Shown here piece by piece: positions 4,675 to 52,408 of a stretch of DNA of 64,000 nucleotides. Numbering within the stretch: the first letter of the stretch is position 1; every line of letters starts with the position of its first letter. A program made the position numbers and the translations under genes. The stretch covers positions 60,191,028 to 60,255,027 of the forward strand of contig OZ024936.1 of assembly GCA_964017235.1 (NCBI GenBank), read 5' to 3'. The DNA is from Sabellastarte sp. h YS-2021 (Eukaryota > Annelida > Polychaeta > Sabellida > Sabellidae). Below the pieces are notes generated by a model. It had not been told where the DNA came from and searched no databases. It was given only the letters and a program-made list of their open reading frames with translations.

Positions 4675-5695
4675 GACTCCAATCTAATTTGAGACTATTC
4701 CGATAGTCTCAAATTTTGAATAATTTTCGCACTGTTGCATTCCCACTCATAGAATGAACATACTTGCATTCTCTTGCTGTGTTGTAACATTGATCTGAAA
4801 ACATTTTTCAAATATTTAGTGGATCCAACATTTTTAATATCTGAGATAGTTATTTAGTCAACCTTTGATAGCTTAACTAAATAACTTTGGCTGGTAGAAA
4901 TATGATCATTGTTTTGAGAACACACGCCAGGTTACAAACTGCAGAGACCACTGAAAAAATTTATTCAACACAGCTGGTAGAAGTTTGATCAGTGTTTTCA
5001 GAACCAGCTGGTTTTGAATAAATTTTTTCATTGGACAACCAGAGATCCTGCATCATACATCATGTTACAAACTGGAGATACCACTGAAAAAATTTATTCA
5101 GCATGGCTGGTAGAAGTTTAATTAGTGTTTTCAGAACAGGCTGGTTTTGAATAAATTTTTTCTTTGGTCAACCAGAGATCCCGCATCACACATCAGGTTA
5201 CAAACTGGAGAGACCACTGAAAAAATTTATTCAGCATGGCTGGTAGAAGTTTAATTAGTGTTTTCAGAACAAGCTGGTTTTGAATAATTTTTTTCATTGG
5301 TCAACCAGAGATCCTGTATCACACATCATGTTACAAACTGGAGAGACCACTGAAAAAATTTATTCAACATGGCTGGTAGAAGTTTGATCAGTGTTTTCAG
5401 AACCAGCTGGTTTTGAATAAATTTTTTCATTGGTCAACCAGAGATCCTGCATCACACATCATGTTACAAACTGGAGAGACCACTGAAAAAATTTATTCAG
5501 CATGCCTGGTAGAAGTTTGATGAGTGTTTTCAGAACAAGCTGGTTTTGAATAAATTTTTTCATTGGTCAACCAGAGATCCTGCATCACACATCAGGTTAC
5601 AAACTGGAGAGACCACTGAAAAAATTTATTCAGCATGGCTGGTAGAAGTTTAATTAGTGTTTTCTGGACAGGCTGGTTTTGAATAAATTTTTTTA
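4675..5695 (+). repeat. HF8 element: hairpin end plus 133-bp tandem array
   Basis: The left end has a perfect hairpin, TTTGAGACTAT-TCCG-ATAGTCTCAAA (4688-4713), preceded by 'agtgactccaatctaa'. From 4931 the phrase 'gttacaaactg' recurs at 4931, 5064, 5197, 5330, 5463 and 5596, an exact 133-bp period, about 5.7 units. Each unit holds an inverted pair 'tgaaaaaatttattca' / 'tgaataaattttttca'. The same hairpin with its flank occurs in reverse at 21.86 kb. It abuts HF3 monomers at ~5700. Confidence 0.85.
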
Positions 5696-6650
5696 CTGGT
5701 AGCTCAGTACCAAAGGTCAAATCCGACCACATCAAAAGATTCGCAGCCCATGATTTCCTATAGGTTGGTTCCACACTGCAAACCTCTGGGACCGATAATA
5801 AGCAAGTAATAACCAATTCTAAGTCTGGTATCCTAAATTTGACATTGAAGGAGGGTCCAAGGTCAAATCCTACCACATCAAAAGATTCACAGCCCATGAT
5901 TTCCTATAGGTTGGTTACCATCCCAAACCTCTAGGAAAAATTATAAGCAAGTTATAACCACTTTTAAGTTTCCCTATCCTCATTTGACCTTGAATGAGGT
6001 AACCAAGGTCATATCCGACTACACCAAAGATTCACAGCCCATGATTTCCTATAGGTTGGTTTACCATCCAAAACCTCTAGGACCAATAATAAGTGAGTTA
6101 TAACCACTTTTAAGTTTCCATTTTCTCGTTTGACCTTGAAGGAGGGGCCCAAGGTCAAATTCAACCACATCAAAAGATTCGCAGCCCATGATTTCCTATT
6201 AGGTTGGTTTCACATTGCAAAACTCTAGGACCAATAACAAGGGAAATATAAGCACTTTCGGTGACTGAAAAGAAATGCCTGTGGCAGCCATCTTGTTTTT
6301 CAAAATGAGGCCAATAATATATCCAGTCACGATTTTGTAATGATGAACATATCCTGCGAATTTGACATCTCTACCTATAATGTCCTTTGTTCTAGAGGGC
6401 CAACAAAACTCCTTGCTAACAGTTGAAAAATACCCATGGCGGCCATCTTGTTTTTCAAAATGAGGCCAAAAATATTCCCAGGCAAGATTTTATGGATACG
6501 AATATATATACTGCAAATTTGAGAAGTCTACGTATAATACCTGGCCTCTACAAGGTTAACGAAAAAATCTCTACACTGCGGCGGCGGCGGCGGCGGCGTA
6601 CTCATGCGTAATCCATAGTATCCACCGGATAGCATCCGGTGGATACAATA
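5696..6650 (+). repeat. HF3 element: ~145-bp array, YY1-like tail and end hairpin
   Basis: Four monomers of ~145 bp (5700-6240) carry 'accacatcaaaagattcg', 'cagcccatgatttcctat' and 'aaacctctaggaccaataat'. They contain TGACCTTGA and AAGGTCAAA, nuclear-receptor-like half-sites. The tail (6240-6560) has two 'ggcggccatcttgtttttc' phrases, then a (CGG)n microsatellite (6578-6599), and ends with the hairpin TATCCACCGG / CCGGTGGATA (6619-6645). The tail recurs at 22.2-22.6 and 50.4-50.84 kb. Confidence 0.85.
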
Positions 6651-7109
6651 AGCCTCCCTTTTCAAAGAGGTGCTAAATCAGTTTAATCAGGGCAAAGATA
6701 TGGGCTCTCAAGATAAAAGAAAACAGTGTTTCAAATATACTTTGTACATTTTACCTAGAGCAATGGGTTTCCTGTCTTTGTCAAATAGAAATTCTACAGT
6801 ACTGTTCTGCCAAATACTGAGTATGATCACAAATTAAAATGAATTTAATCCACAAATTTTCAAAGCTTAAAGGCTTGAGCAAATTTACCTTCCTTATACA
6901 TGTACATGTATTTCACATACAATCATTGAGATGAATTTCATATTTGAAAAATTCTGTTTCCCCTCCTTAATAGCAAAAATGCAAGTACTTTTGAACCAAT
7001 AAACAACCTTTTTTATGTCAAGCTAATAACAAAATGAAACTAAAATGCTTTTTTCAAAACAATTATTCTGTACTGGCAACTGTTGTTCAATATCTTTAAT
7101 ATACGGTAT
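6651..7109. other. Unremarkable AT-rich intron
   Basis: No array, hairpin, exon or transposon end is recognised between the HF3 hairpin and the SINE. Confidence 0.5.
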
Positions 7110-7121
7110 TACACACATATG

Positions 7122-7360
7122 GGGGGCCACGGTGGCAGAGTGGTAACACTCTCGCCTCCCACCTCTGAGGCCGGGGTTCGATCCCCGTCACGGCCTTAAG
7201 TGGGAAAGCTGGTAGTTGCTTGCCGTTGGTCGGCAGTTTACAGTACACAACCCTAGCGAACTCTATGTACTGGTTTCCTCTGCCCTTCCAACTACCCTTC
7301 GTGATATGACCTGTACAGTGTTGAAAGCGACGTAAAACCCCAAATAAATAAATAAATAAA
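7122..7360 (+). mobile_element. tRNA-derived SINE with 12-bp target duplication
   Basis: The head is tRNA-like, with Pol III box A TGGCAGAGTGG (7133-7143) and a perfect box B GGTTCGATCCC (7175-7185), spaced as in a tRNA. The body ends in 'gcgacgtaaaacccc' followed by (AAAT)n. A 12-bp duplication, TACACACATATG, flanks it at 7110-7121 and 7361-7372. Intact internal promoter, perfect duplication and uninterrupted tail suggest a recent insertion by LINE machinery. It is not a functional tRNA gene: the copy continues far past box B. The body family was not matched to a named SINE class. Confidence 0.92.
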
Positions 7361-7372
7361 TACACACATATG

Positions 7373-8325
7373 ATTTGAAGTATCTACTGAAATATGTCTA
7401 CTGTAATAACATTGCATATAAATACATACCACTCTGCATTATATTCCAATAATTTCCCTATACAGTAATGTATATAATCCTACTGTCATGCATTCACCTT
7501 CAGTTTACTGTCTAGAAAAAAACCCCTCTTCCCATTATACAATTATCTATGTATAATAGTACACTTGTCAGTGCAGCATGCCTCCAGATATTACAGTAAT
7601 AAATGCCAAAGGAACAGGAACACAGTCCTAGGAATTATACCATCCCAACCCCCTGAAATCTGAGGGAGGGCTTATCTGCTCCCCCACTGCAAGTGTTTAT
7701 GTTATCTGAAGACCATGTAATTAATAGCCCATCATCTGCATGTGTCTTGAGGTTGTAAATAACTACTCTCTCATTTACTGGAAGAAAGCAAGTATATTTA
7801 TCAAACCCAAACCACATTCTGTTTCTATATTTTTCATTCACTAGAATGTAATGCAAGAGTTGTATTTTATTGGTACACATAATTATTATCTCCAAAGAGT
7901 ATGTGTTGTTTTCAGGACTGTTTGTCTGTTTGTCAGCAGGATTACACAAATACTACTGCTTGGATCTTTCTTTAAAAAGTCATACGCTGGGTCACAGTCT
8001 GACTTAGATCCCACTAAATTTTGACTGATCTGGATCACTGTCTGCATGGAAAATAATAATAACAAGATGCACTCAGAGAGAGCAAAATGCTCGACTCCAT
8101 GTGACCAGTCTCTCAAGTGATATAAAGTATTTTAAGGGAAACAATGAAATAAAACCAAATATGTAAATTAATCTTCATAGCTATATCAAGTAGAAAGCCA
8201 AAGTCATTAAAAATACATTGAAAGGGGGCCTCTGGAAATTCATGAGTATTTTTTGTATCCAAAATAAGATCCAGATATTTCTTTTAGTAACTTCTTCCTT
8301 CAGTCAGGTCCTACCCACAATTTTT
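7373..8325. other. Intron with one member of an unnamed dispersed repeat
   Basis: 7620-7700 ('ggaattatacca...ctgaaatctgagggaggg...ctgctccccc') recurs in inverted orientation at ~14690-14780. Otherwise AT-rich sequence with no recognisable gene. Small ORFs on the minus strand (7.6-8.1 kb) look like chance openings. Confidence 0.4.
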
Positions 8326-8680
8326 ATGTCAGCTGACTTGTCAGTCAGCTGGCATTATGTTGTCACTCTGCGGCGTGGTCGTCCGCGTCCGCGTGAACAA
8401 CTTCTTCTCTAAAACTATAAGGCCTAGAGACATGCTGCTTCTTTTAAAAGATACCTTATCTATCGAGGATAAAAAAGTGTTCAAGGCATGCAAATCTGTC
8501 TGTTTGTCTGTTTGCTAGAGACATTACAAGGGAGGTACCCCCACCAAAAATGTGAAAAATTCAACACTTTATCACAATTTTCTCAGTGACTGTTGCAGGG
8601 ATTTCTCTCATATCTTGCATATATGTACTAGGCCAGAAGTAGATTCTCTTGTGTGAGTATGAGACCTGGATCTGTCTTAT
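8326..8680 (-). repeat. HF5 tail, inverted orientation
   Basis: Starts with the HF5 hairpin (ATGTCAGCTGAC / GTCAGCTGGCAT, 8326-8355). The remainder is the reverse complement of 36240-36577 and 40820-41115: shared phrases include 'ttcaaggcatgcaaatctg', 'tgcagggatttctctc' and 'cttgtgtgagtat'. The K-type monomers that should follow are missing because HF6 begins at ~8681. Confidence 0.8.
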
Positions 8681-8681
8681 T

Positions 8682-10690
8682 GTATCCCCGGACGAAAGTC
8701 GGGGATACTTAGGATTCAGTACAGTCACGCCGCCGCTGCCGCAGAGATTTTCTTTTGGACGCGATAACTTAAAAAATATTTTAGTTAGAACTTTCAAGTT
8801 TGGTATGTGTGTATATATGGGCAATGCCACGAACGCTATTGTTTTGTGACCTTGACCTTCAATCTCAAGGTCACTGGTGGCCTCTTAAAAGTCAGATTTT
8901 GGCCATTTTTTCACATTTTGGCCAGTTCTCACATACGGAAAGTTAGATCATCCTATGGCTGGTATATATAATACATATATATTTCCAGAAATTTGACCTT
9001 GAAGCTCTTCAATGAAGGTCATCCACTGACCGCCAAAGCACCTGACCGAGGGTCATTTTTGGCCTTTTTGGAGATATTTTCGCACTTAATGCTTACTACA
9101 TTGCATGGAAACTATTGAAAATGGCTTTGGAGGTTGACTACATGATGTGGTACCAGCATCCAGGCTTACCGGTTACAGATCTTCATTGAAGGTCATCCAC
9201 TGACCGCCAAAGTACCTGACCATGGGTCATTTTTGGCCCTCTCTTTGTTTGTTTGTTTATGAACAACATAACTCAAAAACTGACAGACGGATGTTGATGA
9301 AATTTTCAGGATATGTCCGAAATGGTAAAAGGAAGAAATGATTAAATTTTGGGAGTGATCCGGATCACTGTCTGGATCTTCTGGATCCATGAAATTTAAT
9401 TTTTAAAGACAGATAACTCAAAAACTTATGCATTTTGATGAAATTTTCAGGAAATATCCTAAATGGGACGAGGAACAAGTGATTAGATTTTGGGAGTAAT
9501 ATGGATCACTGTCTGGATCATCTGGATCCAGGCTGCCAGATGTGTTTGTGTACAAGATAGCTCAAAAACTTATGGACAGATTTTGATGAAATTTTCAGGA
9601 TATGTCTGAAAAGGTAAAAGGATGAAATGATTGAATTTTGGAAGTGATCCGGATCACTATATGGATCTTCTGGATCCATGAAATGTAATTTTTAAAGACA
9701 GATATCTCAAAAAGTAATGGATGGATTTTGATGACATTTTCAGCAAATGGCCTTAAATTGTGCGAGGAACAAGTGATTAGATTTTGGGAGTCATCTGGAT
9801 CATCTGGATCCAGGCTGCCACATGTGTTTGTGTACAAGATAGCTCAAAAACTTATGGACGGATTTTGATTAAATTTTCAGGATATGTCTGAAAAGGTAAA
9901 AGGATGAAATGATTGAATTTTGGAAGTGATCCGAATGACGATATGGAACTTCTGGATCCATGAAATGTAATTTTTAAAGACAGATACCTCAAAAAGTAAT
10001 GGATGAATTTTGATGACATTATCAGCAAATGTCCTAAATGGTACAAGGAACAAGTGATTAGATTTATGGCGTGATCTGAATCACTGTCTGGATCATCTGG
10101 ATCCAGGCTGCCACATAATTTTAGGATGGATTTTGATGATATTTTTAGGATATGTTAGAAATGGTAAAAGGAAGAAGTGGTAAAAGGAAGAAATTATTCA
10201 ATTTTGCGAGTGATATGGACCACTATCTGGATCTTCTGGATCCATGAAATGTAATTTTTAAAGACAAATAGCTTAAAAACGTATTGGTGCATTTTGATGA
10301 CATTTTCAGCAAATGGCCTTAAATGGGATGAGGAACAAGTGATTAGATTTTGGGAGTGATCTGGATCACTGGATCATCTGGATCCAGGCTGTCACATAAT
10401 TTTAGGATGGATTTTGATGATATTTTTAGGATATGTTAGAAATGCTAAACGGAAGAAGTGGTAAAAGGAAGAAATGATTAAATTTTGTCAGTGATCTGGA
10501 CCACTATCTGGATCTTCTGGATCTTCTGGATCCATGAAATGTAATTTTTAAAGACAAATAGCTCAAAAAGTCATGGATGGATTTTGAAATGGGACAAAAA
10601 ACAAGTGATTAGGTTTTGGGAGTAATCTGGATCATCTGGATCCAGGGGTTTTTTTGAAGGAAGTTATGGCCAGATAATTTTAGGGTGGAT
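8682..10690 (+). repeat. HF6 element: hairpin start and ~255-293-bp array
   Basis: It starts with the hairpin GTATCCCCGGA / TCGGGGATAC (8682-8708) and 'cgccgccgctgccgcag'. 8820-9240 has two blocks with 'cactgaccgccaaag' and 'tgaccttgaagc'. From ~9250 to 10690 about five units of 255-293 bp repeat 'ttttcaggatatgtc', 'ctcaaaaacttatgga' and 'ctggatccatgaaatg'. Many units contain the palindrome AGTGATCCGGATCACT or near copies. A related fragment is at 15.6 kb. No protein is encoded. Confidence 0.82.
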
Positions 10691-10717
10691 TTGATGATAG
10701 TCCAGAAATTGAGCTTC

Positions 10718-13607
10718 CATGGCAGAGGTCTACAGACAATACCATGGTGGTTGCCTATTTAAAGAGTGTGTGGGGGGGGAGGAAGTGAGGCCCTCTTTGT
10801 GCCCTACTATGGAGAATCCTGACCTGGTGCTCCAGGAAACAGGCTCAAGCCTGACACATTCACGCCTTAACTATGTCTCGCTCGGGGATACACTGCGTCG
10901 AGACGCAATGTCTAGTGTTTTTTTTAATAATTTTTTTTAATAATTCCAGAAAGCAAGTTGCACATAAACCATTTAGAGCTAAAAGTAGTCTTTCTAGAAT
11001 TTCAAACCTCCTGTTGCAACAAAACAGTACTGATAGCTACAGACAACACAACAGTTGTTGCCTATATCAACAAAGAATGGGGGATGAAATCGGGCTCCCT
11101 GTGTGCCCTACTGTCGAGAATCCTGTCCTGGTGCACCAGAAATCAGGTGACCCTCAGGGCACGTCACATCCCCGGCCGACTGATAGCAGACAAGCTATCC
11201 AGGCTTGGCCAGACCATTCAAACAGAGTGGTCACTTCACCCAGAAGTGTTTTAAGCTATATGCTCCCAGTGGCACCAGCCTCAAGTGGATCTGTTTGCCA
11301 CCAGATTCAGCAACAAAGTACCCCAGTTTGTGTCACCAGTACCAGACCCCCAGGCATGGGCAGTGGACACACTCAGCCTTTCCTGGGAGGGTCTGGATCC
11401 TTATGCCTTTCCACCAGCAGCCATCTTGGGCAAAGTGGTGGAAAAGTTACAGGACCCTTGCAACAGGCTAATCCTTATTGCACCGGGGTGGCCCAACATG
11501 CCCTGGTTCTGGGATCTGGTGGCCATGTCCAGTCAGATTCCACTGTGTCTGCCCAACATACCCAACCTGGTGTCTCAACCATTCAACCAGGTTCTTCACA
11601 GGAACCTAGCAAATCTGAACCTGCATGCCTGGCTCCTAGAGCCCCAGCTATCAAGGAGCAAGGGTTCTTTGAGGCAGTGGCAGCACGAATTGAAGCTCCT
11701 CAAAGAGGATCAACTAGATCAGTCTATGAGGCAAAGTGGTCCAATTTTACAAAGTGGTGCCTCAGTAATCAGGTGGACTTCAGGGCACCACCTCTGAAAG
11801 CCATTGCTGACTTCCTCCTGCATTTGTTTTAGGACAAGAAGTTACAGCCTGGCACTATTGATGGCTACAGATCTGCCATTGCCAAACTGAGCAACGCCAC
11901 CATTAATGTCAGCAAAGATGAGAATCTCAATCGTCTCCTGGATAGTTTCCATAGAGTCAGACCCAAGGGCAGGAGGGGCATCCCCTCCTGGAACCCTTCT
12001 CTGGTGCTACACCAGCTTATAAAGGCCCCCTTTGAACCTTTAAAAGAGGCCTCCTTGAAACACTTGACTTTCAAGACTGTTTTTCTAATGGCCTTGGGTT
12101 CTGGTAACCTCCTGGAAAGCTTCTCTGGTGCTACACTAGCTTACAAAGGCCCCCTTTAAACCTTTAAAAGAGGCCTCCTTGAAACACTTGACTTTCAAGA
12201 CTGTTTTTCTAATGGCCTTGGGTTCTGGTAACCTCCTGGAACCCTTCTCTGGTGCTACACCAGCTTACAAAGGCCCCCTTTAAACCTTTAAAAGAGGCCT
12301 CCTTGAAACACTTGACTTTCAAGACTGTTTTTCTAATGGCCTTGGGTTCTGGTAAACGCAGGAGTGAGATCCATGCTTGGTCACATAGGAACATTAGACA
12401 CCAGTCAGACTGGTCTAAAGTTTCCCTATACCCTTCACCCAGCTTTCTGTCCAAGTATCAGCTGGCTAAGGGAGGAGTTAGTGTGGCACCAGTGGTCATA
12501 CCAGCCCTGGCTCCTTCCATAGACAAGTCACTCAAGGGTGATAGGTCCTTATGTCCAGTTAGAGCTCTGCGCTACTACCTAAACAGGACCTAAGACCTTA
12601 GGCAGAATAACGAGTTGGTCTTTGTCTCCTTCAAGAAAGGTTTTGACAAAGAAATCTCAACTGTGATCCCATGCTATGAGCTCTCGGACCAAGAGTCCCT
12701 CACCCTACATCAGGTTAAAGCCCATGATGCTAGGGCCTTTGCTGCTTCTAATGCTTTTCAATCAGAAATCTCCGTAGAGCAGATTTTGTCAGCCTGTCAC
12801 TGGAAATCCCATAACACCTTCACCCAGTTTTATGGATGGATGTTGCTTGGGCTGAGTCTGAGCTTTTCCATCTAGGGCCTGTGGTGGCCGCTCAACAGGT
12901 ACACCACCAGACCCAGAACTGAGGAGATTTTGTATATATGTAAATATGACATAGTGTTAAATGTAAATATGTACAATATATAAAAAAAAACAAAAAACTG
13001 TGACTGGCTTCCCTTGGGAAGTTTATTTCTTATGGGACTGAACTCAGCCCTCTCTACCTATTCTCAGGTCTTCCTGAGAAAGAAGAGGGGGCGAACTTGG
13101 ACTTCCGGTTAACCGGTCAGTCCTATCCTACCTTGACCTCTGCGGTCACCTGACCCTGGGTCAAATATGGGCATATTCAGTTTTGTTCTTTTATGAGTTC
13201 ACACATGTCCCTAGCAGCTTAGCCGCCTTCCAAGCGGTAGTTATTCAGCAATTGTCCATTGGATAGGATGTATTAACGTAATAAAATTGCAAATTTAATA
13301 AGTAAATTATATTTTTATGAGTTAATACCCTATCCAATGGACAGGCAAGGCCCACCCAACCGGCCCCGCTATCAGCTTACTAGGGGTCTTACTAGGATTA
13401 GACATGAAAAGGATGCTATGACGTCACATTGTCTAGACAGGAAGAGGAAGTACGATGCACTCTCCTGGCCGGTCCTGCCGGTATTATATACAGGACGACT
13501 TTTTCTGACGTTTGGCGGGACCGGTCGTGCTGACTGGTAAAGCAATAGTCCATTGGATAGGGTATTAACTTATAAAAATTTAATTTACTTATTAAATTTG
13601 CAAAATT
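10718..13607 (+). mobile_element. DIRS-like retroelement fossil, family A, 5'-truncated
   Basis: A tyrosine-recombinase retrotransposon remnant. Parts in order: RNase H-like region (~10960-11250, with a decayed second copy of part of it at ~10720-10940), the C-terminal pol region (~11280-11650), a tyrosine recombinase region (~11840-12880) with the family's 'ACHWKSHNTFTQ' signature, an AT-rich 3' untranslated stretch, an internal complementary region (13250-13345) and a terminal repeat ending near 13607. Gag and RT are absent. It is broken in several places and internally rearranged. The same family is present, inverted, at 55.6-64 kb. Probably moderately old. Confidence 0.85.
13250..13345. 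repeat. Internal complementary region of DIRS family A
   Basis: Two back-to-back terminal signatures, 'tgtccattggatagg' and 'cctatccaatggaca', flank 'aaaattgcaaattt' and an AT-rich centre. The second half is the reverse complement of the terminus at ~13540-13607. In DIRS elements such a region is complementary to both element ends and is thought to template circularisation. The minus-strand copy has its counterpart at ~55890-55995. Confidence 0.8.
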
Positions 13608-13724
13608 GTGTATAAGTGTCTGTAAACAGTTAGTAGTAAGATAGACTGCAAATAAAGTAGCAATACAACAATAATCTTCATTTTGAAAACTTTTACAAAA
13701 ATCCATCAGCACAGTGCATGCCCC

Positions 13725-13930
13725 AAATTAAAAAGATGCTATGATGTCACACTGTCTAGACAGGAAGGAAGTGTGATATGCCACCTGGCAAATGCACAGT
13801 GGGCCTGGCCAGCCAGTGGAAACACAGGACAAATTTTTCTTTCATTTGGTGGGCTGACTTGCGCCAATCGGATTAGCAATTGTTCATTGGATAGGATGTA
13901 TCAACACAATGAAATATTACATTTAGAGGA
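13725..13930 (+). mobile_element. Older fragment of a DIRS family A terminal region
   Basis: A second, more diverged copy of the terminal repeat: 'gatgctatgatgtcacac', 'gtctagacaggaag' and 'attggataggatgta' match 13410-13450 and 13255-13275. No coding part accompanies it. It may be a remnant of another insertion or a duplicated end of the neighbouring copy. Confidence 0.65.
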
Positions 13931-14255
13931 TTTTGTTTGAATATGTTGTTCACCATTTTTGAGTCCGCTATTACATAGTCAAATTGCAGACATGTAGCTT
14001 ATTGCATAACTGAGCAATAGCTACTCTGATTTTCTCTCTGTTGAGTAAATACTTGTATCTTGAAAACCATTGCATTTAAAGTATTTTGTTCAAATATAAT
14101 ATTCACCTACTTTTGGGTTAGCTGTAACAGAGTAAAACTGTAGAGCTGTAGTGCATTACATAGCTGAGCGATAGCTACTTTCAGGTTCTCATAGCTGAGT
14201 AAATGTACTAAATGACCTGTTGATTCACCTACTTTGGGATCAGTTGATATTACAT
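13931..14255 (-). repeat. HF5 (K-type) monomers, inverted
   Basis: About two ~150-bp monomers, the reverse complement of those at 34.2-36.2 kb: 'ctgagcaatagctact', 'gaaaaccattgcattta', 'attttgttcaaata' and 'ttcacctacttttggg'. The array is cut on the left by the DIRS terminal fragment. A short HF6-like end ('gacagaggtttgtgttctc') follows at ~14262. Confidence 0.7.
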
Positions 14256-15580: not shown

Positions 15581-15584
15581 TTTA

Positions 15585-15965: not shown

Positions 15966-16084
15966 TATTATATCCTATTTTACTTAATGAAGTTAATATG
16001 TATCCTTGTTCAATTTAATTTAGCTTCTATTCTTGCAATATTGCTTCTTACAGAATCAAAACTTTACAAAATAATTCTCACTTA

Positions 16085-24769: not shown

Positions 24770-24779
24770 CTGAGAGCAG

Positions 24780-36577: not shown

Positions 36578-36579
36578 AA

Positions 36580-38575: not shown

Positions 38576-38663
38576 AAGTGTGTTCACATGCCATATTTGA
38601 GACATGTTTCTCTTATGACAAAGATATATGGATTGCTGTAACTGATTATTTGATGTACATGTA

Positions 38664-41629: not shown

Positions 41630-44600
41630 ATTCCTGTTTATCTATTTTTGGCAAAAATTCGAAAATTCAAAATGGCCGCCATTTTTGGGAAAAGGAAAAT
41701 TTTTTCAAAATTGCCAAGAGTACATTTCTTAGATAGCCTATGGGTCGAAAATTTCAACGAAATAACTCTATTTTGCACGGTTAAGGCCAGTTTGTGTTTT
41801 TCCATTTTTGGCAAAAATTCGAAAATTCAAAATGGCCGCCATATGTGGGGAGGGGAAAATTTTTTGAAAATTGCAAAGAGTACATTTCTTAGATACCCCT
41901 TGGGTCGAAAATTTCGCCGAAATCACTCTATCTCGCACGGTTAAGGAGATAGAAGCAAATTTGTGTTTTGCCATTGTTGGTAAAAATTCGAAATTCAAAA
42001 TGGCCGCCATTTTTGGGGAGGGGAAAATTTTTTGAAAATTGCAAAGATTACATTCCTTAGATACCCTGTGGGTCGAAAATTTTGACGAAATCGCCGAAAT
42101 CGCTCTATCTCGCATGGTTAAGGAGATAGAAGCAAATTTGTGTTTTGCCATTTTTGGCAAAAATTCGAAAATTCAAAATGGCCGCCATTTTTGGGGAGGG
42201 GAAAATTTTTTTGAAAATTGTAAAGATTACATTCCTTAAATACCCTGTGGGTCGAAAATTTCGATGAAATCGCTCTATCTCGCACGGTTAAGGAGATAGA
42301 AGGAAATTTGTTTTGCCATTTTTGGCAAAAATTCAAAATGGCCGCCATTTTTGGGGAGGGGAAAATTTTTGGAAAATTGCAAAGAGTACACTCCTTAGAT
42401 ACCCTGTGGGTCGAAAATTTTGCCGAAATCGCTCTATCTCGCACGGTTAAGGAGATAGAAGCAAATTTGTGTTTTGCCATTTTTGGCAAAAATTCAAAAA
42501 TTCTAAATGGCCGCCATTTTTGGGGAGGGGAAAATTTTTTGAAAATTGCAAAGATTACATTCCTTAGATACCCTGTGGGTCAAAAATTTCGACGAAATCG
42601 CTCTATCTCGCACGGTTAAGGAGATAGAAGCAAATTTGTGTTTTGCCATTTTTGGCAAAAATTCGAAAATTCAAAATGGCCGCCATTTTTGGGGAGGGGA
42701 AAATTTTTGGGAAAATTGCAAAGAGTACACTCCTTAGATACCCTGTGGGTCGAAAATTTCGACGAAATCGCTCTATCCCGCATGGTTAAGGAGATAGAAG
42801 CAAATTTGTGTTTTGCCATTTTTGGCAAAAATTCGAAAATTCAAAATGGCCGCCAAGAGTACAATGCTCAGATACCCTGTGGGTCGAAAATTTTGCCGAA
42901 ATCGCTCTATCTCACATGGTTAAGGAGATAGAAGCAAATTTGTGTTTTACCATTTTTGGCAAAAATTCGAAAATTCAAAATGGCCGCCATTTTTGGGGAG
43001 GGGAAAATTTTTGGAAAATTGCAAAGAGTACACTCCTTAGATACCCTGTCGGTCGAAAATTTCGACGAAGTCGCTCTATCTCACACAGTTAAGGAGATAG
43101 AAGCAAATTTGTGTTTTGCCATTTTTGGCAAAAATTCTAAAATTCAAAATGGCCGCCATTTTTGGGGAGGGGAAATTTTTTTTGAAAATTGTAAAGATTA
43201 CATTCCTTAAATAGCCTGTGGGTCGAAAATTTTGCCGAAATCGCTCTATCTCACATGGTTAAGGAGATAGAAGCAAATTTGTGTTTTACCATTTTTGGCA
43301 AAAATTCGAAAATTCAAAATGGCCGCCATTTTTGGGGAGGGGAAAATTTTTGGAAAATTGCAAAGAGTACACTCCTTAGATACCCTGTCGGTCAAAAATT
43401 TCGCCGAAATCGCTCTATCTCGCACAGTTAAGGAGATAGAAGCAAATTTGTGTTTTGCCATTTTTGGCAAAAATTCTAAAATTCAAAATGGCCGCCATTT
43501 TTGGGGAGGGGAAATTTTTTTTGAAAATTGTAAAGATTACATTCCTTAAATAGCCTGTGGGTCGAAAATTTCGACGAAATCGCTCTATCTCGCACGGTTA
43601 AGGAGATAGAAGCAAATTTGTGTTTTGCCATTTTTGGCAAAAATTCGAAAATTCAAAATGGCCGCCATTTTTGGGGAGGGGAAAGTTTTTGGAAAATTGC
43701 AAAGAGTACACTCCTTAGATACCCTGTGGGTCGAAAATTTTGCCGAAATCGCTCTATCTCGCACGGTTAAGGAGATAGAAGCAAATTTGTGTTTTGCCAT
43801 TTTTGGCAAAAATTCTAAAATTCAAAATGGCCGCCATTTTCGGGAAGGGGAAAATTTTTGGAAAATTGCAAAGAGTACACTCCTTAGATACCCTGTGGGT
43901 TGAAAATTTCGACGAAATCGCTCTATCTCACACAGTTAAGGAGATAGAAGCAAATTTGTGTTTTGCCATTTTTGGCAAAAATTCTAAAATTCAAAATGGC
44001 CGCCATCTTTGGGGAGGGGAAAATTTTTTTAAAATTGGCAAGAGTAGAATTCTCAGATACCCTGTGGGTCGAAAATTTTGCCGAAATCGCTCTATCTCGC
44101 ACGGTTAAGGAGATAGAAGCAAATTAGTGTTTTGCCATTTTTGGCAAAAATTCTAAAATTCAAAATGGCCACCATTTTCGGGAAGGGGAAAATTTTTGGA
44201 AAATTGCAAAGAGTACACTCCTTAGATACCCTGTGGGTTGAAAATTTCGACGAAATCGCTCTATCTCACACAGTTAAGGAGATAGAAGCAAATTTGTGTT
44301 TTGCCATTTTTGGCAAAAATTCTAAAATTCAAAATGGCCGCCATCTTTGGGGAGTGGAAAATTTTTTTAAAATTGGCAAGAGTAGAATTCTCAGATACCC
44401 TGTGGGTCGAAAATTTTGCCGAAATCGCTCTATCTCGCACGGTTAAGGAGATAGAAGCAAATTAGTGTTTTGCCATTTTTGGCAAAAATTCTAAAATTCA
44501 AAATGGCCAGGAGGGGCAAATTTTTTAAAAATTACCAAGAGTACAATGCTCAGATACCCTGTGGGTCGAAATTTTTGACGAAATCGCTCTATCTCGCACG

Positions 44601-45635
44601 GTTAAGGAGATAGAAGCAAATTTGTGTTTTGCCATTTTTGGCAAAAATTTGAAAATTCAAAATGGCCGCCATTTTTGGGGAGGGGAAAATTTTGGGAAAA
44701 TTGCAAAAAATTACATTTATTAGATACCCTGTGGGTCAAAAATTTCGACGAAATCGCTCTATCTCGCACGGTTAAGGAGATAGAAGCAAATTTGTGTTTT
44801 GCCATTTTTGGCAAAAATTCGAAAATTCAAAATGGCCGCCATTTTTGGGGAGGGGAAAATTTTTTGAAAATTGCAAAGATTACATTGATTAGATACCCTG
44901 TGGGTCGAAAATTTCGACGAAATCGCTCTATCTCGCACGGTTAAGGAGATAGAAGCAAAATTTGTGTTTTGCCATTTTTGGCAAAAATTCGAAAATTCAA
45001 AATGGCCGCCATTTTTGGGGAGGGGAAAATTTTTGGAAAATTGCAAAGAGTACATTCCTTAGATACCCTGTGAGTCAAAAATTCTGTCCAAATCGCTCTA
45101 TCTCTTACGGTTTCTGAGATATTAAGATTTTTTCGTTTTTCGCAAAAATTCAAGATGGCCGCCAAAAGTGGCGAAAATTGAAAATTTTCAATTTTGTACA
45201 GAATACTCTTCTACTACCCTGTGAGTCAAAAATTCTGTAGTACCTAAATGGCTATTACTCATGTACTGACAAAGCTATCAGTCCCAAATGCAATACCAAG
45301 CGAGCTATGGACATAACAATCTTGTATTCAAAATTGTAGTAAAATATCTTTAATTATCTTGGCTTAAATGCACGGAAACCAATGGGTACTGAAAATAGCT
45401 GTACTTAAGTATTACTCAGTAAGCAAAAGAGGTACAACAGCCAAAAGCAATCCCAAGCAAGCTACTGACCCAATAAGCCTGCATACCAAATTTGGTGACA
45501 ATAGCTCTAATACTTTTCCTTTAAATGAGCGGAAACCATGCGTGACGCCGGACATCGGACGCCGGACATCGGACACCGGACATCGGACGGCGAAAAAAGC
45601 AAAAATAATATATCCACCCCCCAGGGGGGTGGACA
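41630..45635 (+). repeat. HF4 element: 169-bp YY1-palindrome satellite array
   Basis: About 21 monomers, usual spacing 168-170 bp, each with AAAATGGCCGCCATTTT, 'ataccctgtgggtcgaaaat', 'atcgctctatctcgcac' and 'gttaaggagatagaagcaaa'. A few monomers are shortened, such as the one at ~42850. Adjacent 338-bp dimers are nearly identical (42940-43277 with 43279-43616; 43794-44131 with 44132-44469). The array passes at ~45230 into K-type sequence, then a 'cggacatcgga' triple repeat (45549-45592) and the hairpin TCCACCCCCC / GGGGGGTGGA (45613-45633). ORFs of ~100 codons on both strands are products of the repeat. Confidence 0.88.
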
Positions 45636-46245
45636 TAATAATAAGCGAGTTATTAGCACTTTTAAGTTTGCCTATCCTCGTTTGGCCTTGAAGGAGAGGC
45701 CCAAGGTCACATCTGACCACATCAAAAGATTCGCAGCCCATGATTTCTAATAGGCTAATTTCCCATTGCAAACTTCTAGGACCAATACTAAGTAAGTTAT
45801 GACCACTTTTAAGTTTGGGTATCCTCATTTGACCTTGAAGGAGGGGCCCAAGGTCAAAACTGACTACATCAAAAGATTCGCAGTCCAGGATTTGCTTTAT
45901 GTTGCTTTTACATTACAAACCTCTAGCACCAATAATAAGCGAGTTATAAGCACTTTTAAGTTTGGCCACCTCGTTTGACCTTGAAGGAGAGGCCCAAGGT
46001 CAATTTGACCACATCAGAAGATTCACAGCCCATGATTTCCTATAGGTTGGGTTTCACATTGCAAACATCTAGGACCAATAATAAGCGAGTTATAAGCACT
46101 TTTAAAATTGGCTATCCTCGTTTGACCTTGAAGGAGGGGCCCAAGGTCAAATCTGAACACATTCAGAAGATTCGCAGCCCATGATTTCTTAAAGTTTGGT
46201 TTGCCTTTGCAAACCTGTAGGACCAATAATAAGCAAGTAACTAGA
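45636..46245 (+). repeat. HF3 monomer array without tail
   Basis: Four ~145-bp monomers: 'tttgaccttgaaggag', 'ggcccaaggtcaaa', 'agattcgcagcccatgattt' and 'aataataagcgagttataa'. It abuts the HF4 hairpin on the left and HF1 on the right; no HF3 end hairpin. Confidence 0.83.
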
Positions 46246-46650
46246 GGATTGCTCGCAAAAAAAAAGATAATGTTTTTGCATAGCAAAAACAAAGCATCCC
46301 GAAAAGGATATAAAGGTGAGTGCTAAAGTATTAAGAAAATGCTTCCTTTCTAGCCTTATACTGTTGTGGCAACCAAAGTCAGCACAGTCTGCTCTATCTA
46401 GCACGGTTTTCAAGATATAAGCATGTTTGTGTTTTGCAAAAAATTCGAAAATTCAAAGTGTCCGCTATATTTGGCGAGACAAAAATATCTTGAAAATTGG
46501 CATGGCTACTCTGCAGAGATACCCAGCAGGTCAAAAATTTTGTTGAGTTCGCTCCATCTAGCACGGTTTTCGAGATATAAGCATTTTTGTGTTTTGCAAA
46601 AACTTTGAAAATTCAAAACGGCCACCATTTTTGGGGAGATAAAAATTTTT
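46246..46650 (+). repeat. HF1 element, left part before HF2 insertion
   Basis: Two to three monomers with 'ctctatctagcacggtttt', 'gagatataagcatttttgtg', 'tggcatggctactctgcagag' and a YY1-like 'aaaacggccaccattttt'. It stops within a monomer at ~46650, where HF2 sequence starts; the same monomer resumes at ~48749. Confidence 0.8.
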
Positions 46651-48748
46651 GACAAGACCACTGCCGCGGTGTGTATCTCCCGCCGAGCATTAAAGGAGAA
46701 GAAATAGCTTTTCCAAGATATTCACAATTTTTTATTTTCGTGTGTGAAAGCTCTTCCAAAAGTAGGTGAATGAGTTATTTGAGAAAAATTGGCTATCTGC
46801 AATACTATTAAGAGATAATTCACATTTACTCCTTTTGAGTAGGTGAGTAATTACCTACGGGTCAGGAAATTCACCAAGTGAAAGTTCTCCCAAAAGTAGA
46901 TGAATGAGTTATTTGATAAAAATTGGGTATCCGCAAAACTTTTAGAGATAATTCGCATTTACTCATTTTGAGTAGGCGAATAATTAGCTATGGGTCTGAA
47001 ACTTCACCAAGTGAAAGTTCTCCCAAAAGTAGGTGAATGAGTTATTTGAGAAAAATTGCCTATCTGCAATACTTTTAGAGATAATTCGCATTTACTCATT
47101 TTGAGTAGATGAGTAATTAGCTATGGGTCTGAAACTTCACCATGTGAAAGCTCTCCCACAAGTAGATGAATGAGTATTTGATAAAAATTGGGTATCCGCA
47201 ATACTTTTACAGATAATTAGCATTTACTCATTTTGAGTAGGTGAATAATTAGCTATGGTGTGAAACTTCACCAAGTGAAAGCTCTCCCAAAAGTAGGTGA
47301 ATGAGTTATTTGAGAAAAATTGGCTAACTGCAATACTTTTAGAGATAATTCGCATTTACTCATTTTGAGTAGGTGAGTAATTAGCTATGGGTCTGAAACT
47401 TCACTAAGTGAAAGCTCTACCAAAAGTAGGTGAATGATTTATTTGAGAAAAATTGGCTATCTGCAAAACTTTTAGAGATAATTCGCATTTACTCATTTTG
47501 AGTAGGTGAATAATTGCCTATGGGTCTGAAACTTCACCATGTGAAAGCTCTCCCAAAAGTAGATGAATGAGTTATTTGATAAAAATTGGGTATCCGCAAT
47601 ACTTTTACAGATAATTAGCATTTACTCATTTTGAGTAGGTGAATAATTAGCTATGGGTCTGAAACTTCACGGAGTGAAAGCTCTCCCAAAAGTAGGTGAA
47701 TGAGTTATTTGAGAAAAATTGGCTATCTGCAATACTTTTAGAGATAATTAGCATTTACTCATTTTGAGTAGGTGAGTAATTAGCTATGAGTCTGAAACTT
47801 CACCATGTGAAAGCTCTTCCAAAAGTAGGTGAATGAGTTATTTGAGAAAAATTGGCTATCTGCAATACTTTTAAGAGATAATTCGCATTTACTAATTTTG
47901 AGTAGGTGAGTAATTATCTACGGGTCTGAAACTTCACCATGTGAAAGCTCTCCCAAAAGTAGATGAATGAGTTATTTGATAAAAATTGGGTATCCGCAAT
48001 ACTTTTACAGATAATTAGCATTTACTCATTTTGAGTAAGTGAATAATTAGCTATGGGTCTGAAACTTCACGGAGTGAAAGCTCTCCCAAAAGTAGGTGAA
48101 TGAGTTGTTTGAGAAAAATTGGCTATCTGCAATACTTTTAGAGATAATTCGCATTTACTCATTTTGAGTAGGTGAGTAATTAGCTATGAGTCTGAAACTT
48201 CACCATGTGAAAGCTCTTCCAAAAGTAGGTGAATGAGTTATTTGAGAAAAATTGGCTATCTGCAATACTTTTAAGAGATAATTCGCATTTACTCATTTTG
48301 AGTAGGTGAGTAATTATCTACGGGTCTGAAACTTCACCATGTGAAAGCTCTCCCAAAAGTAGATGAATGAGTTATTTGATAAAAATTGGGTATCCGCAAT
48401 ACTTTTACAGATAATTAGCATTTACTCATTTTGAGTAGGTGAATAATTAGCTATGGGTCTGAAACTTCACCATGTGAAAGCTCTCCCAAAAGTAGGTGAA
48501 TGATTTATTTGAGAAAAATTGGCTATCTGCAATACTTTTAGAGATAATTCATATTTACTCATTTTGAGTAGGTGAGTAATTATCTACGGGTCTGAAACTT
48601 CACCATGTGAAAGCTCTCCCAAAAGTACATGAATGAGTTATTTGATAAAAATTGGGTATCCGCAATAGTTTTTGAGATAATTCGCATTTACTCATTTTGA
48701 GTAGGTGAGTAATTACCTACGGGTCTGAAACTTCACCGAGTGAAAGCT
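46651..48748 (+). repeat. HF2 element (J-type ~135-bp array) nested in HF1
   Basis: Starts with the HF2 left end 'caagaccactgccgcgg' and TATCTCCCGCCGAGC, then about 15 monomers of ~130-140 bp: 'gtgaaagctctcccaaaagt', 'gaatgagttatttga', 'atttactcattttgagtagg' and 'agctatgggtctgaaact'. Two variants (ending '...ggctatctgc' and '...gggtatccgc') alternate, and from ~47550 to 48480 they form a ~400-bp trimer repeated. No HF2 right hairpin. Monomers are homologous to the K-type of 31.9-33.2 and 34.3-36.2 kb. Confidence 0.85.
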
Positions 48749-50358
48749 CTTTGGGATAGCTGCTCTGCAGAGATACCCTGAAGATCAAAAATTTCGTCGA
48801 AATCGTTCTATGTAGCACGGTTTTCGAGATATTAGCATTTTTGTGTTTTCCAATTTTTGCACAAAAATTCGAAAATTCAAAATGGCCGCCATTTTTGGCA
48901 AGACAAATTTTTTTTGAAAATTGGCATGGCTACTCTGCAGAGATACCCTTTGGATCAAAAATTTCGTCGAAATCGCTCTATCTAGCACGGTTTTCGAGAT
49001 ATAAGCATTTTTATGTTTTGCAATTTTTGCAAAAAATTCAAAATGGCCGCCATTTTTGGGGAAAAATTTTTTTTTGAAAATTGGCATGGCTACTCTGCAG
49101 AGATACCCTGTGGGTCAAAAATTTCGTCGAAATCGTTCTATCTAGCAGGGCTTTCCAGATATAAGCATTTTTATGTTTTGCAATTTTTGCGAAAAATTCA
49201 AAATGGCCGCCATTTTTTGCGAGATAAAATTTTTTTGAAAATAGGCATAGCTGCTCTGCAGAGATACCTTGGAGGTCAAAAATTTCGTCGAAATCGCTCT
49301 ATCTAGCAGGGTTTTCGAGATATAAGCATTTTTATGTTTTGCAATTTTTGCGAAAAATTCAAAATGGCCGCCATTTTTGCGAGACAAAATTTGTTTGAAA
49401 ATAGGCATGGCTGCTCTGCAGACATACCTTGGAGGTCAAAAATTTCGTCGAAATCGCTCTATCTAGCAGGGTTTTCGAGATATACGCATTTTTATGTTTT
49501 GCAATTTTTGCGAAAAAATTCGAAAATTCAATATGGCCGCCATTTTTGGCGAGACAAAATTATTTTGACAATAGGCATGGCTACTCTGCAGAGATACCCT
49601 GTGGGTCAAAAATTTTGTCGAAATCGCTCTATCTAGCACGGTATTCGAGATATAAGCATTTTTATGTTTTGCAATTTTTGCGAAAAATTCGAAAATTCAA
49701 AATGGCCGCCATTTTTGGCAAGACAAAATTGTTTTGAAAATTGGCATGGCTACTCTGCAGAGATACCCTGCGGGTCAAAAATTTTGTCGAAATCGCTCTA
49801 TCTAGCAGGGTTTTCGAGATATTAGCATTTTTATGTTTTGCGATTTTTGCGAAAAATCCGAAAATTCAAAATGGCAGCCATTTTTGGCGAGATAAATTTT
49901 TTTTGAAAATTGGCATGGCTGCTCTGCACAGATACCCAGTGGGTCAAAAATTTCGTCGAAATCGATCTTTCTAGCAGGGTTTTCGAGATATAAGCATTTT
50001 TATGTTTTGCAATTTTTGCGAAAAATTCGAAAATTCAAAATGGCCGCCAATTTTGGCAAGATAAAATTTTTTTGAAAATAGGCATGGCTACTCTGCAGAG
50101 ATACCCTGTGGGTCAAAAATTTCGTTGAAATCGCTCTATCTGGTACGGTTTTCGAGATATAAACATTTTTATATTTTGCAATTTTTGCGAAAAATTTGAA
50201 AATTCAAAATGGCCGCCATTTTTGGCGAGACAAAAATTTTTTGAAAATTGGGATAACTACTCTGCAGAGATACTCTGCGGGTCAAAAAATTCGTCGAAAT
50301 CGCTCTATCTAGCACGGTTTTCGAGATATAAGCATTTTTGTGTTTTCCTTATTTGGAA
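48749..50358 (+). repeat. HF1 element, main array
   Basis: Ten monomers of ~160-170 bp with 'aaaatggccgccattttt', 'ttggcatggctactctgcag', 'caaaaatttcgtcgaaatcg' and 'cggttttcgagatataagc'. Ends 'ttcataataattaattaagg', where an HF3 tail follows. The reverse frame ORFs are artefacts of the repeat. Confidence 0.87.
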
Positions 50359-50369
50359 AATTCATAATA

Positions 50370-50836
50370 ATTAATTAAGGTTGGTTTCATATTGCAAACC
50401 TCTAGGACCAATAATAAGGGAGACATATGCCCTTTTCATGAATGAAAAGAAACGCCTGTGGCGGCCATCTTGTGTTTCAAAATGAGGCCAAAATTATTTA
50501 TTTTCAGTAAAGATTTTGTAATGATGAACATATCCTGCGAATTTGAGATCTCTATCTATAATGCCCTTTCTTTTAGAGGGCCAACAAAACTCCTTGCTGA
50601 AAGTCAAAAAATACCCGTGGCAGCCATCTTGTTTTTCAAAATGACACGAAAAATATTCCCAGGCAAGATTTTATTGTTATGAATATATCATGGAAATTTG
50701 AGAAGTCTACCTGTAATACCCCGGCCTCTAGAGGGGTAACTACAAAATCACTACATACTTCGGCAGCGGCATACTCATGCATAATCCATAGCATCAACAG
50801 GATGCTATCCGAATTGCATGTTATCCGGTGGATACA
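50370..50836 (+). repeat. HF3 tail inside HF1 territory
   Basis: Begins at an HF3 monomer end ('aaacctctaggaccaat'), has two 'gcggccatcttgt'/'gcagccatcttgtttttc' phrases, and ends at a decayed, longer hairpin (50791-50835: 'gcatcaacagg...tatccggtggata'). It matches 6200-6645. Confidence 0.8.
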
Positions 50837-51215
50837 AAAATCAAACATGAAACAAATACAGGTACTTTTACATTTTGCAGTTCACATAGTTGCCATCTCA
50901 GAAATATTAAACCTCAAATTACCTGGACTAGAACCCATAATACAGAGGTACAAGCCCAAAAGTTAAATGCTGAGTTTGTTGATAAATCGATCACAGATCA
51001 AAATAATTAAAACAAGTAACAACAAATTCAAACACGTTAGACAATCTTTTGTGAAATAATATTTGAATCAAAACTTTGTGTGTCAGACACCATAATTTTA
51101 TACTGACCATGTAAACCACAGCACAACTTTATTCAATACTTTACCAGTATAAATTTTACAACAAACATGCTTAAATATATGTAACCATAGATATTATTAT
51201 GTATATAAAACATTT
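50837..51215. other. Unique spacer within HF1 region
   Basis: AT-rich sequence between an HF3 hairpin and the resumption of HF1 monomers; nothing recognised. Confidence 0.4.
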
Positions 51216-52408
51216 ACATGTTGTCGAAATCGCTCTATCTAGCACAGTTTTTGATATATAAGCATTTTTGTGTTTTGCAATTGCGAAAAATTCAAAAACT
51301 CAAAATGGCCTCCATTTTTAGTAAGACAAAGATTTTTTGGAAAAAGAGTTAGTTAATCTGGAGAGATACCCTGCTGCTCAAAAATTTCATCGAAATAGCT
51401 CTATCTCATACGGTTTTCGAGATATAAGCATTTTTGTGTTTTAGAATTTTGGCAAAAAATTGGAAAATTAAAAAATGGCCGCCATTGTTGGCGAGATAAA
51501 ATTTTGTTGTTAGTAGTGTAAGCTAATCTGCAGATACCCTGTTGCTCAAAAAGTTCGTTGAAATCGCTCTATCTTGCACAGTTTTCGAGATATAACCATT
51601 TTTGTGTTTTGCCATTTTTGCGAAAAATTCGAAAATTCAAAATGGCCACCATTTTGGCGAGATAAAAAATTTTGGGAAAATGTGTTAGTTAATCTGCATA
51701 GATACCCTGTGGGTCATAAATTTTGTCAAAATCACTCTACCTCACATGGTTTTCAAGATATAAGCAGAGATACCCTGTGAGTCAAAAATTTTGTCGAAAT
51801 CGCTCTATCTCGCAGTTTTCGAGATATAAGCATTTTTGTGTTTTGCAATTTTTGCGAAAAATTCAAACATTCAAAATGGCCACCATTTTCGACAGGAAAT
51901 TTTTTTTTGAATGGCAACTCGACATGGCGAGATAAAAAAATACCCTGTGGGTCAAAAATTTTGTCGAAATTGCTCTATCACACACGGTTTTCAAGATACA
52001 GGCATTTTTGTGGTTTCCTTATTGGGAAAATTCGCAATGATTAATTAATCATTAATTACTGGGCCATTTCTTAACCTGAGTGAATCAATGCCAAAATCTA
52101 ATGATTTCCAGATTTTAATAAAATTAATGTATTTGCGAAATTTCAGGTGAATAGATAAAATCCCTTTCAAGTTATCATCCGGACAAGCTTACCCATCGAA
52201 AAAACACATTTCTGGTCATGTGACCTCTCTGATTGGTCGAAATGTCACTGCAGCATATTCCAAAAAATTCCCCATGGCTACTGTATACACCTGCCAAATT
52301 TGAAAAGAATCCACCCAACGGTCACAGAGTTGTAAGGAAAACACAATGTGGAGCCGGGGGAGGCTGATTTCCTCCTATACACAAACAAGCGTCCCACAAG
52401 GGACGCTT
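51216..52408 (+). repeat. HF1 element, right part with terminal hairpin
   Basis: Five partly shortened monomers (51220-52020), then a unique tail (52030-52386) containing 'ggtcatgtgacctctctgat' and the perfect hairpin AAGCGTCCC-ACAA-GGGACGCTT (52387-52408). The tail matches 130-478, defining the HF1 right end. Confidence 0.87.

Follow-up and report, generated by a model that had tools for sequence, protein, structure and literature searches.

The window analysed here, a stretch of 64,000 nucleotides from the genome of Sabellastarte sp. (contig OZ024936.1, positions 60,191,028 to 60,255,027), contains 17 GC-rich hairpins, compared to a mean of 1.28 and a maximum of 5 in 60 dinucleotide shuffles. 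Four of them reach a score of at least 11, compared to a mean of 0.08 and a maximum of 1 in the shuffles, and the number of hairpins in the window is beyond chance expectation. Seven are the tips of elements belonging to families B, C, E, G, H, and I, four are one same inverted repeat within the monomers of the B array, two lie at a single spot near 34588, and the remaining four are at 8846, 11970, 27007, and 61086. The hairpin of family A is AT-rich and hence falls outside this set. Terminal hairpins were located at 4686 and 21860 (A), 6618 and 22591 (B), 8326 and 36548 (C), 8682 (H), 16548 and 29212 (E), 45609 (I), and 52387 (G), and the hairpins of a first-pass annotation (HF numbers) were matched to these families by coordinates. 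That annotation had proposed at least eight families with one architecture. We found seven with a clear terminal hairpin, only six of which follow a common plan, and the eighth family that fits the plan, J, has a diverged hairpin and was apparently absent from the earlier list. The internal arrays of 130- to 170-bp monomers that it described were recovered as tandem arrays with monomers of about 133 to 169 bp (145/282 bp in H) and copy numbers that differ between copies. Arrays make up most of the length of several elements, and those of I and G are related to each other despite differing ends.

Each family had also been credited with end palindromes, which is correct for the tips of B, C, E, G, H, I, and A; neither the hairpin at 34588 nor that at 11970 is an element end. 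The former is internal to a 389-bp element (34536 to 34924) that lies in the array of the copy C2, is flanked by an 8-bp duplication, CTCAACAG, and is not a Helentron; it may be hAT-like. The latter lies within a coding-like repeat, possibly DIRS-like, that is 87% identical to positions 63078 to 64000 of the window. This hairpin is not kept in the relative near 63195, and three frames in the repeat gave no Pfam match.

The largest feature is element A (HF1), which spans 17,234 bp (4671 to 21904), has terminal inverted repeats, and encloses the hairpins at 6618, 8326, 8682, 11970, and 16548. Within it lie the 5' hairpin of B1 (6618 to 6646, minus strand, the element running leftward); the 5' part of C1 (8321 to 8679, plus strand, hairpin 8326 to 8355), which is interrupted by H; H itself (8682 to 10912, plus strand), read in the window only and with approximate ends, with a 5' hairpin at 8682 to 8708 and an array at 9254 to 10587; and E1 (16084 to 16581, minus strand), an array with a 5' hairpin at 16548 to 16577. 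The 3' end of H consists of an inverse subTIR (10880 to 10891, two mismatches) and the palindrome TGCGTC-GA-GACGCA. To the right of A, on the minus strand, are B2 (22226 to 22624, 5' hairpin 22591 to 22619) and two copies with both ends. E2 (27564 to 29247) has a 5' hairpin at 29212 to 29243, an array at 28091 to 29157, and a 3' subTIR at 27586 to 27597 with a palindrome, and C2 (34157 to 36582) has a 5' hairpin at 36548 to 36577, a 155-bp array, and a 3' subTIR at 34189 to 34200 with the palindrome CCCGT-TC-ACGGG. J, a 317-bp nonautonomous element with both ends, follows at 36691 to 37007 (minus strand), and the 3' end of E3, with a piece of E-type array to its left, is at 38952 to 39196 (plus strand). 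B3 (41270 to 50838, minus strand; ends approximate) has its 3' end near 41301 and a degenerate 5' hairpin at about 50790 to 50835, and its array is split by two minus-strand elements. One is I (41502 to 45636), with a 5' hairpin at 45609 to 45637, a 169-bp array at 41611 to 45112, a 3' subTIR at 41590 to 41599, and the palindrome ACACAT-TATC-ATGTGT. The other is the 5'-truncated G2 (46239 to 50377), with 133-bp and 169-bp arrays and a 3' subTIR at 46292 to 46300 (one mismatch) with a palindrome; leaving it out does not restore the phase of the B array, and its 5' part is missing. G1 (51218 to 52412, minus strand) is a 169-bp array with a 5' hairpin at 52387 to 52408.

Families B, C, E, G, H, and I share one plan: a T-rich flank, a 5' subTIR with an inverted repeat that together form the hairpin, an array, and then an inverse subTIR with a palindrome. 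In the hairpin, the 5' subTIR makes up the first arm and its complementary inverted repeat the second. Within the window, the inverse motif that the first-pass annotation reported at the opposite end is complete in E (12 of 12 letters) and I (10/10), matches at 11/13 in B, and has one mismatch in 12 for C, two in 12 for H, and one in nine for G2; for E1 and G1, neither this motif nor a 3' end was found there. The 3' palindrome was read in the window for C, H, I, G2, and J, and for B with a longer loop; for B, G, and H, the 3' end is known from the window reading only. The boundaries of the elements were compared among copies elsewhere in the genome. For each search, 40 of 519 to 3,883 candidates were scored, so well-kept copies are favoured, and the slices that were read came from high-scoring matches: the 20 highest for C, G, and the 3' end of E, 20 among the best 21 for E, and 20 among the best 22 for B. 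In each of B, C, E, and G, all 39 non-self scored matches end just past the 5' hairpin, and the flanks beyond it are unrelated among the 20 slices per family, taken from the 22 best matches. For I, 31 of 39 matches stop at q125-131, seven continue into the flank of B array, and one stops at q144. Thus, the hairpins mark boundaries common to the copies, sharply in B, C, E, and G and for the most part in I, and the refuting condition named in the first-pass annotation, copies that lack a common boundary there, does not hold for these families. At the 3' end, every one of the 39 matches stops at q97-110 for E and at q129-148 for C, and for I 37 stop at q139-152 and two reach q167; all 20 E slices carry the inverse subTIR, the GCATC/GATGC palindrome, and then five to eight T. 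Ends in the B, C, E, and G slices are T-rich, and the run of A or T there may be part of the element or of the target. In one C copy (L089), a motif recurs in the flank, and five A were read there. The single empty site that could be read, that of I in B3, shows either no duplication or a 2-bp one (AA/TT): the letters around I are CTATTACC/AATAATAAGCGAG, those of the B monomer are CTAGGACC/AATAATAAGCGAG, and the B3 monomer is restored exactly when I is left out. The palindrome of I lies about 73 bp inside its 3' end, compared to 8 to 35 bp in mite HINEs in the cited part of PMC4067079. Canonical Helitron ends (5' TC, 3' CTRR, a hairpin about 11 bp inside, and an A/T target) were absent from the hairpin ends read.

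The first-pass annotation had suggested looking for an autonomous Rep-helicase element with the same ends. A Rep-helicase element of like layout exists in the same genome, outside the window: a 12.3-kb Helentron (the C3 locus) that has the plan of the six families, array included. It contains one stop-free frame of 2,245 amino acids with DUF6570, Helitron_like_N (90.1 bits), and PIF1 (96.6 bits), the latter two both over the Pfam cut-off. Residues 2042 to 2238 align to positions 6 to 225 of the 225 of the Exo_endo_phos profile, a sub-threshold match (21.4 bits against a cut-off of 24.5; E, 0.00023). The Rep motif, QxRG(S/L), has S, the Helentron type (VEFQHRGSPHLH). Because a hairpin scan of pieces of this locus gave none at the setting used, its ends were found by comparing copies. 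The 5' end of the family consists of T5, a hairpin, a GTCC/GTCT microsatellite, and a 164- to 187-bp array, and the 3' end consists of the subTIR GCAACCCGCCT, an imperfect palindrome, and then T in all 14 slices read. These features bear on whether the window families belong to Helitron2, with palindromes at both ends and a Rep-helicase without an endonuclease, rather than to the Helentrons. Helitron2 elements do have palindromes at both ends according to the cited part of PMC4067079, and the endonuclease match of the C3 protein is sub-threshold; that match nevertheless covers nearly the whole profile, and the same source gives the S of the Rep motif as a Helentron mark, although this concerns the C3 protein. 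We consider assignment to Helitron2 improbable.

The C3 Helentron has gene-less derivatives. Three of these, L157, L158, and L159, are 99.8, 98.9, and 99.5% identical to its last 612, 609, and 612 bp, respectively, and in each the array directly precedes the matching 3' part. In the window, J resembles the C3 Helentron at both ends and in the monomer, with 38 of 47 positions matching at the 5' end, 70 of 102 in the monomer, and 16 of 17 at the 3' subTIR; judged from its sequence, J appears to be a diverged relative of this Helentron with both ends. The subTIRs of B, C, E, G, H, and I were not found in the C3 locus except for one two-mismatch match of C, which lies within the coding frame. The ends of this Rep-helicase element match those of J and of its own derivatives but are not those of B, C, E, G, H, and I. 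The genome holds 23 further Helitron_like_N matches, and the end comparison covers the C3 family alone.

Element A differs from these families. Its tips, AAGTGACTCCAATCT, are inverted, with hairpins at 4686 to 4715 (plus strand) and 21860 to 21889 (minus strand), and it is flanked by the target duplication ATGA (4667 to 4670 and 21905 to 21908). A 133-bp array lies in its left end (4931 to 5700, plus strand). The tip is kept in 30 of 30 loci, and 39 non-self scored matches include 10 opposite-strand end pairs. Read by eye and with the window pair included, nine of 10 end pairs have a 4-bp target duplication; one (C5) is without it. Elsewhere in the genome A measures 19.5 to 29 kb, and five other copies cover 66 to 88% of the window copy. 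Identical inverted tips, paired 17 to 29 kb apart, and the 4-bp duplication rule out HF1 as a Helentron, the affinity suggested for it. From that duplication, a cut-and-paste-type transposase is the most likely means by which A moves. Four frames from pieces of five copies (frames of at least 150 amino acids, listed by pieces, so that frames spanning piece borders could escape) gave no Pfam match over the cut-off. The large size and inverted ends of A would also suit a self-synthesising element of the Polinton/Maverick type. The tips of Polintons/Mavericks begin with AG and their target duplication is 6 bp. The 4-bp duplication of A, together with the absence of matches to a polymerase, an integrase, or a capsid protein from the frames scanned (four frames in the other copies), makes this origin very unlikely. 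Inverted ends that hold tandem repeats also characterise the Tetris foldback transposon of Drosophila, as described in the cited part of PMC7492417; unlike Tetris, A is 17 to 29 kb long and filled with other elements.

Taken together, these results make it very probable that B, C, E, G, H, I, and J are nonautonomous Helentrons (HINEs of the Pearl type) and that A is a separate giant element with terminal inverted repeats and HINE passengers. The Helentron and Pearl affinity put forward for all of the hairpin families is thus supported for most of them (inverse subTIR, palindrome, and T-rich flanks in B, C, E, G, H, and I, and common boundaries in B, C, E, G, and mostly I) and fails for HF1, which has inverted ends with a duplication. 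Because the ends of the six differ in sequence from those of the only autonomous Helentron read, their membership rests on structure. Alternatively, DDE transposases could have moved the same six as foldback-like or MITE-like elements, and their hairpins would be palindromes of terminal inverted repeats that arose by chance or were selected. In favour of this, A does have inverted ends, palindromic tips, and a 4-bp duplication in this very window, and Pearl was originally named a MITE (cited part of PMC7492417). We give this little credence, given that the two ends of E, C, and I are unlike (one has the hairpin, the opposite one the inverse subTIR and another palindrome), that the empty site of I shows no duplication beyond 2 bp, and that a Rep-helicase element has the same layout. 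That the hairpins are not mobile-element ends at all and the arrays were amplified and shuffled as satellites, as the share of array in several elements and the related arrays of I and G might suggest, is scarcely credible when matches among copies from many contigs end at one and the same base, beyond which the flanks are unrelated, and leaving out I restores the B monomer. As nonautonomous Helentrons, the families would move as known rolling-circle transposons do: a Helentron Rep-helicase-endonuclease would nick the T-rich 5' junction, peel off one strand, and halt at the 3' palindrome, and the peeled strand would be joined into a T-rich target without duplication, carrying the tandem array along.

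The closest described system is Cg_HINE of Crassostrea gigas, which in the cited part of PMC7492417 likewise has a 5' subTIR with a complementary inverted repeat, a short microsatellite, a satellite-like array, and a 3' subTIR with a palindrome, as well as nested elements and unrelated ends with related arrays; its T-rich target is probably shared by the present families too. This likeness is one of structure. Short arrays of approximately 160-bp repeats between conserved ends, as found here, were also described for the bivalve Pearl (Gaffney et al. 2003, as cited in the relevant parts of PMC7492417 and PMC4067079), a likeness by description and not by sequence. Helentrons of mites and flies, in the cited part of PMC4067079, resemble C3 in their Rep-helicase, C-terminal endonuclease-like region (the C3 match being sub-threshold), and S in the Rep motif. 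With their HINE/DINE-1 partners, they share with the present families subTIRs and a 3' palindrome, and probably also their T-rich target without modification. Their nonautonomous partners have the same ends as the Helentrons, as do J and the C3 derivatives here, and in some copies tandem repeats. Unlike the mite and fly Helentrons described there, the gene-bearing copies here carry an array with a second 5' hairpin inside. The oyster HINEs could be tied to no autonomous Helentron in the cited part of PMC7492417, and autonomous copies were not seen in the oyster genome according to that of a second study (PMC7992393); here, one family comprises both an autonomous copy and gene-less derivatives. 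In the open-access literature, we found no clam report tying an autonomous Helentron to HINEs.

In oysters, HINE-borne arrays rank among the chief forms in which satellite DNA is dispersed. In the worm, element A would be a second route for the spread of HINE blocks, as cargo of a giant transposon. Since a gene-bearing Helentron with an array and near-identical gene-less derivatives coexist in one genome, it becomes possible to test both the enzyme and how the array arose. All six copies read of the C3 family (three gene-bearing loci and the three gene-less derivatives, the slice of L159 stopping short of the outer 5' end) have at least one further complete 5' hairpin inside the array, joined at the same TTCGTTTTT junction, and therefore each has several 5' ends and one 3' end. 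We tentatively suggest, as a reading less likely than not, that the satellite-like array is part of the autonomous Helentron and lengthens by re-using its 5' end. If this is true, rolling-circle slippage or self-targeting at the monomer T5 would be the engine of the Pearl/HINE arrays, seeding satellites.

The window (C14:60191028-60255027, in an assembly of 1.786 Gb and 647 contigs) was found to hold 17 GC-rich hairpins; 60 dinucleotide shuffles averaged 1.28 and never exceeded 5. The tips of families B, C, E, G, H, and I accounted for seven and one inverted repeat inside the B monomers for four, with a single spot near 34588 supplying two and lone sites at 8846, 11970, 27007, and 61086 the remaining four. 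Most families came with tandem arrays, with periods of approximately 133 to 169 bp in the window. The first-pass annotation had proposed that such families share one Helentron-like architecture, and genome copies were examined for a common boundary at the hairpins. Searches with the 5' ends of B, C, E, and G returned 765, 901, 1325, and 1316 candidates, respectively, and all 39 nonself matches scored per query ended just beyond the hairpin (query positions q62-78, q103-112, q98-110, and q82-90). In 20 slices per family, out of the 22 best matches, conservation extended past the hairpin into a short A/T stretch, beyond which the flanks were unrelated. The shared boundary was thus borne out for these four families and for most copies of I, 31 of 39 matches ending at q125-131, 1 at q144, and 7 continuing into B-array flank. 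On the 3' side, 39 of 39 matches ended at q97-110 for E and at q129-148 for C, and 37 of 39 at q139-152 for I (2 extended to q167). All 20 E slices read GGCTGTGGGGTA, then a GCATC/GATGC palindrome, TA, and 5 to 8 T, and within the window C, H, B, G2 (a G copy), and I carried the inverse subterminal motif (subTIR; 0 to 2 mismatches) followed by a palindrome.

The PF14214 profile gave 24 matches in this genome and 0 in 14 control genomes, and one of the 24 loci was examined over its full length. It is a Helentron of approximately 12.3 kb (C3:168666692-168678958) with an open 2245-aa frame that lacks stops and carries DUF6570, Helitron_like_N, and PIF1 above cut-off; Exo_endo_phos scored 21.4 bits, below the cut-off of 24.5. 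Its Rep motif, VEFQHRGSPHLH, bears the S given as a Helentron mark in PMC4067079. Comparison with a copy on C4 placed its 5' end at T5/AGGTGGGTTGCGTGTAACCAACCCGCCT, after which come a GTCC/GTCT microsatellite and repeats of 164-187 bp, and T5 preceded the hairpin in all five 5' ends examined (gene-bearing L155, L156, and L174 and gene-less L157 and L158). At the 3' end lies the subTIR GCAACCCGCCT, inverse to its 5' counterpart. For a 3'-side query, the best 40 of 3883 candidates were scored; 38 of the 39 nonself matches ended at q692-712 and 1 at q673, and the terminus CTCTTG/T was present in 14 of 14 slices. Because its frame is open and the 3' ends at those 39 other scored places are 97-100% identical to its own, this Helentron looks young.

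In the gene-less derivatives L157, L158, and L159, the array was directly joined to the 3'-terminal 609-612 bp of the Helentron (98.9-99.8% identity), with no intervening genes. Each of these loci and of L155, L156, and L174 had at least one extra complete 5' hairpin within its array, after TTCGTTTTT. Multiple 5' ends with a single 3' end per array would be consistent with a rolling-circle model, such as that summarised in PMC12628747; insertion of the element into its own T5, followed by joint mobilisation, would fit the internal hairpins equally well. The window element J (317 bp, 36691-37007, minus strand; palindrome TTGGGT-ACCCAA) resembled the Helentron at both ends, with 38/47 in the hairpin region of the 5' end and 16/17 in the 3' subTIR, and also in the monomer (70/102). 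The proposed link to an autonomous Rep-helicase element with the same ends therefore found a counterpart in part: judged by sequence resemblance, J is tied to the autonomous Helentron via both ends and the remaining window families via layout only.

Several elements were nested. B3 (41270-50838) was split by I (41502-45636) and G2 (46239-50377), both inside it. When I was removed in silico, the B monomer became continuous, reading CTATTACC/AATAATAAGCGAG (intact monomer, CTAGGACC/AATAATAAGCGAG), and the insertion site was compatible with either zero duplication or a 2-bp AA duplication. G2 lacked its 5' part, and its removal did not restore the B3 phase. H interrupted C1 at approximately 8680, and a 389-bp element with the duplication CTCAACAG interrupted the C2 array. 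In 7 of 39 I copies the adjoining B-array flank was that seen in the window (45600-45680), and at L114 a G element lay next to the same AATAATAAGCG spot of the B monomer. For the seven I matches, either recurrent insertion at one B-monomer spot or composite copies would account for the shared flank, and the I and G positions together may likewise reflect either a target hot spot or copied composites. G2 carried two array types consecutively (46743-48750), 133 bp and 169 bp. The 169-bp arrays of I (41611-45112) and G (48751-50346) were related (60-80%) and their ends unrelated, similar to the module exchange described for Cg_HINEs.

The window also contained a DDE transposon remnant (54883-55515, plus strand; DDE_Tnp_4, E 4.6e-8, above cut-off) and a reverse transcriptase frame (59373-60107, minus strand; RVT_1, E 1e-11), the latter adjoined by broken frames at 56910-59308 and with relatives of its region at 10855-12870 (plus) and 62415-64000 (minus). 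A 230-bp repeat at 2284-2516, 2839-3068, and 38659-38891 (92-97% identity) contained 18-bp units, AATCTAAAATTCGCCAG, and their near-inverse.

Element A (4671-21904), with a hairpin at each inverted tip, had been counted among the Helentron-like families as HF1. A search with window 4606-4900 (best 40 scored of 519 candidates) gave 10 opposite-strand pairs (20 matches) among the 39 other matches, spaced 19.5-29 kb, compared to 17.2 kb in the window. When the flanks of nine of these pairs and the window pair were examined, the tips AAGTGACTCC...GGAGTCACTT were bordered by an identical 4 bp at both sides in 9 of 10, the C5 pair lacking the duplication. Such paired ends and target duplications contradict the Helentron-like assignment. 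The tip was retained in 30 of 30 excised loci, with a 1-base hairpin-loop change in one. Pieces of five other copies matched 66-88% of the window copy. Since the stretches at 6618, 8326, and 11970 were matched in 4 of these 5 copies and those at 8682 and 16548 in all 5, the hairpins there are passengers of A. No transposase was recognised among the frames listed in those pieces, with four of the frames scanned with Pfam.

The plan of the other window families is the same as that of the nonautonomous Helentrons (HINEs) described in the oyster (PMC7492417) and the mite and fly (PMC4067079) studies. The oyster study reports that no relation could be established between its autonomous Helentrons and its HINEs, and among the papers listed in searches of the open-access literature we found no clam report of an autonomous Helentron with a matching HINE partner set. 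The present analysis adds these families to that record, together with an autonomous element, the array it carries, its derivatives, and element A.
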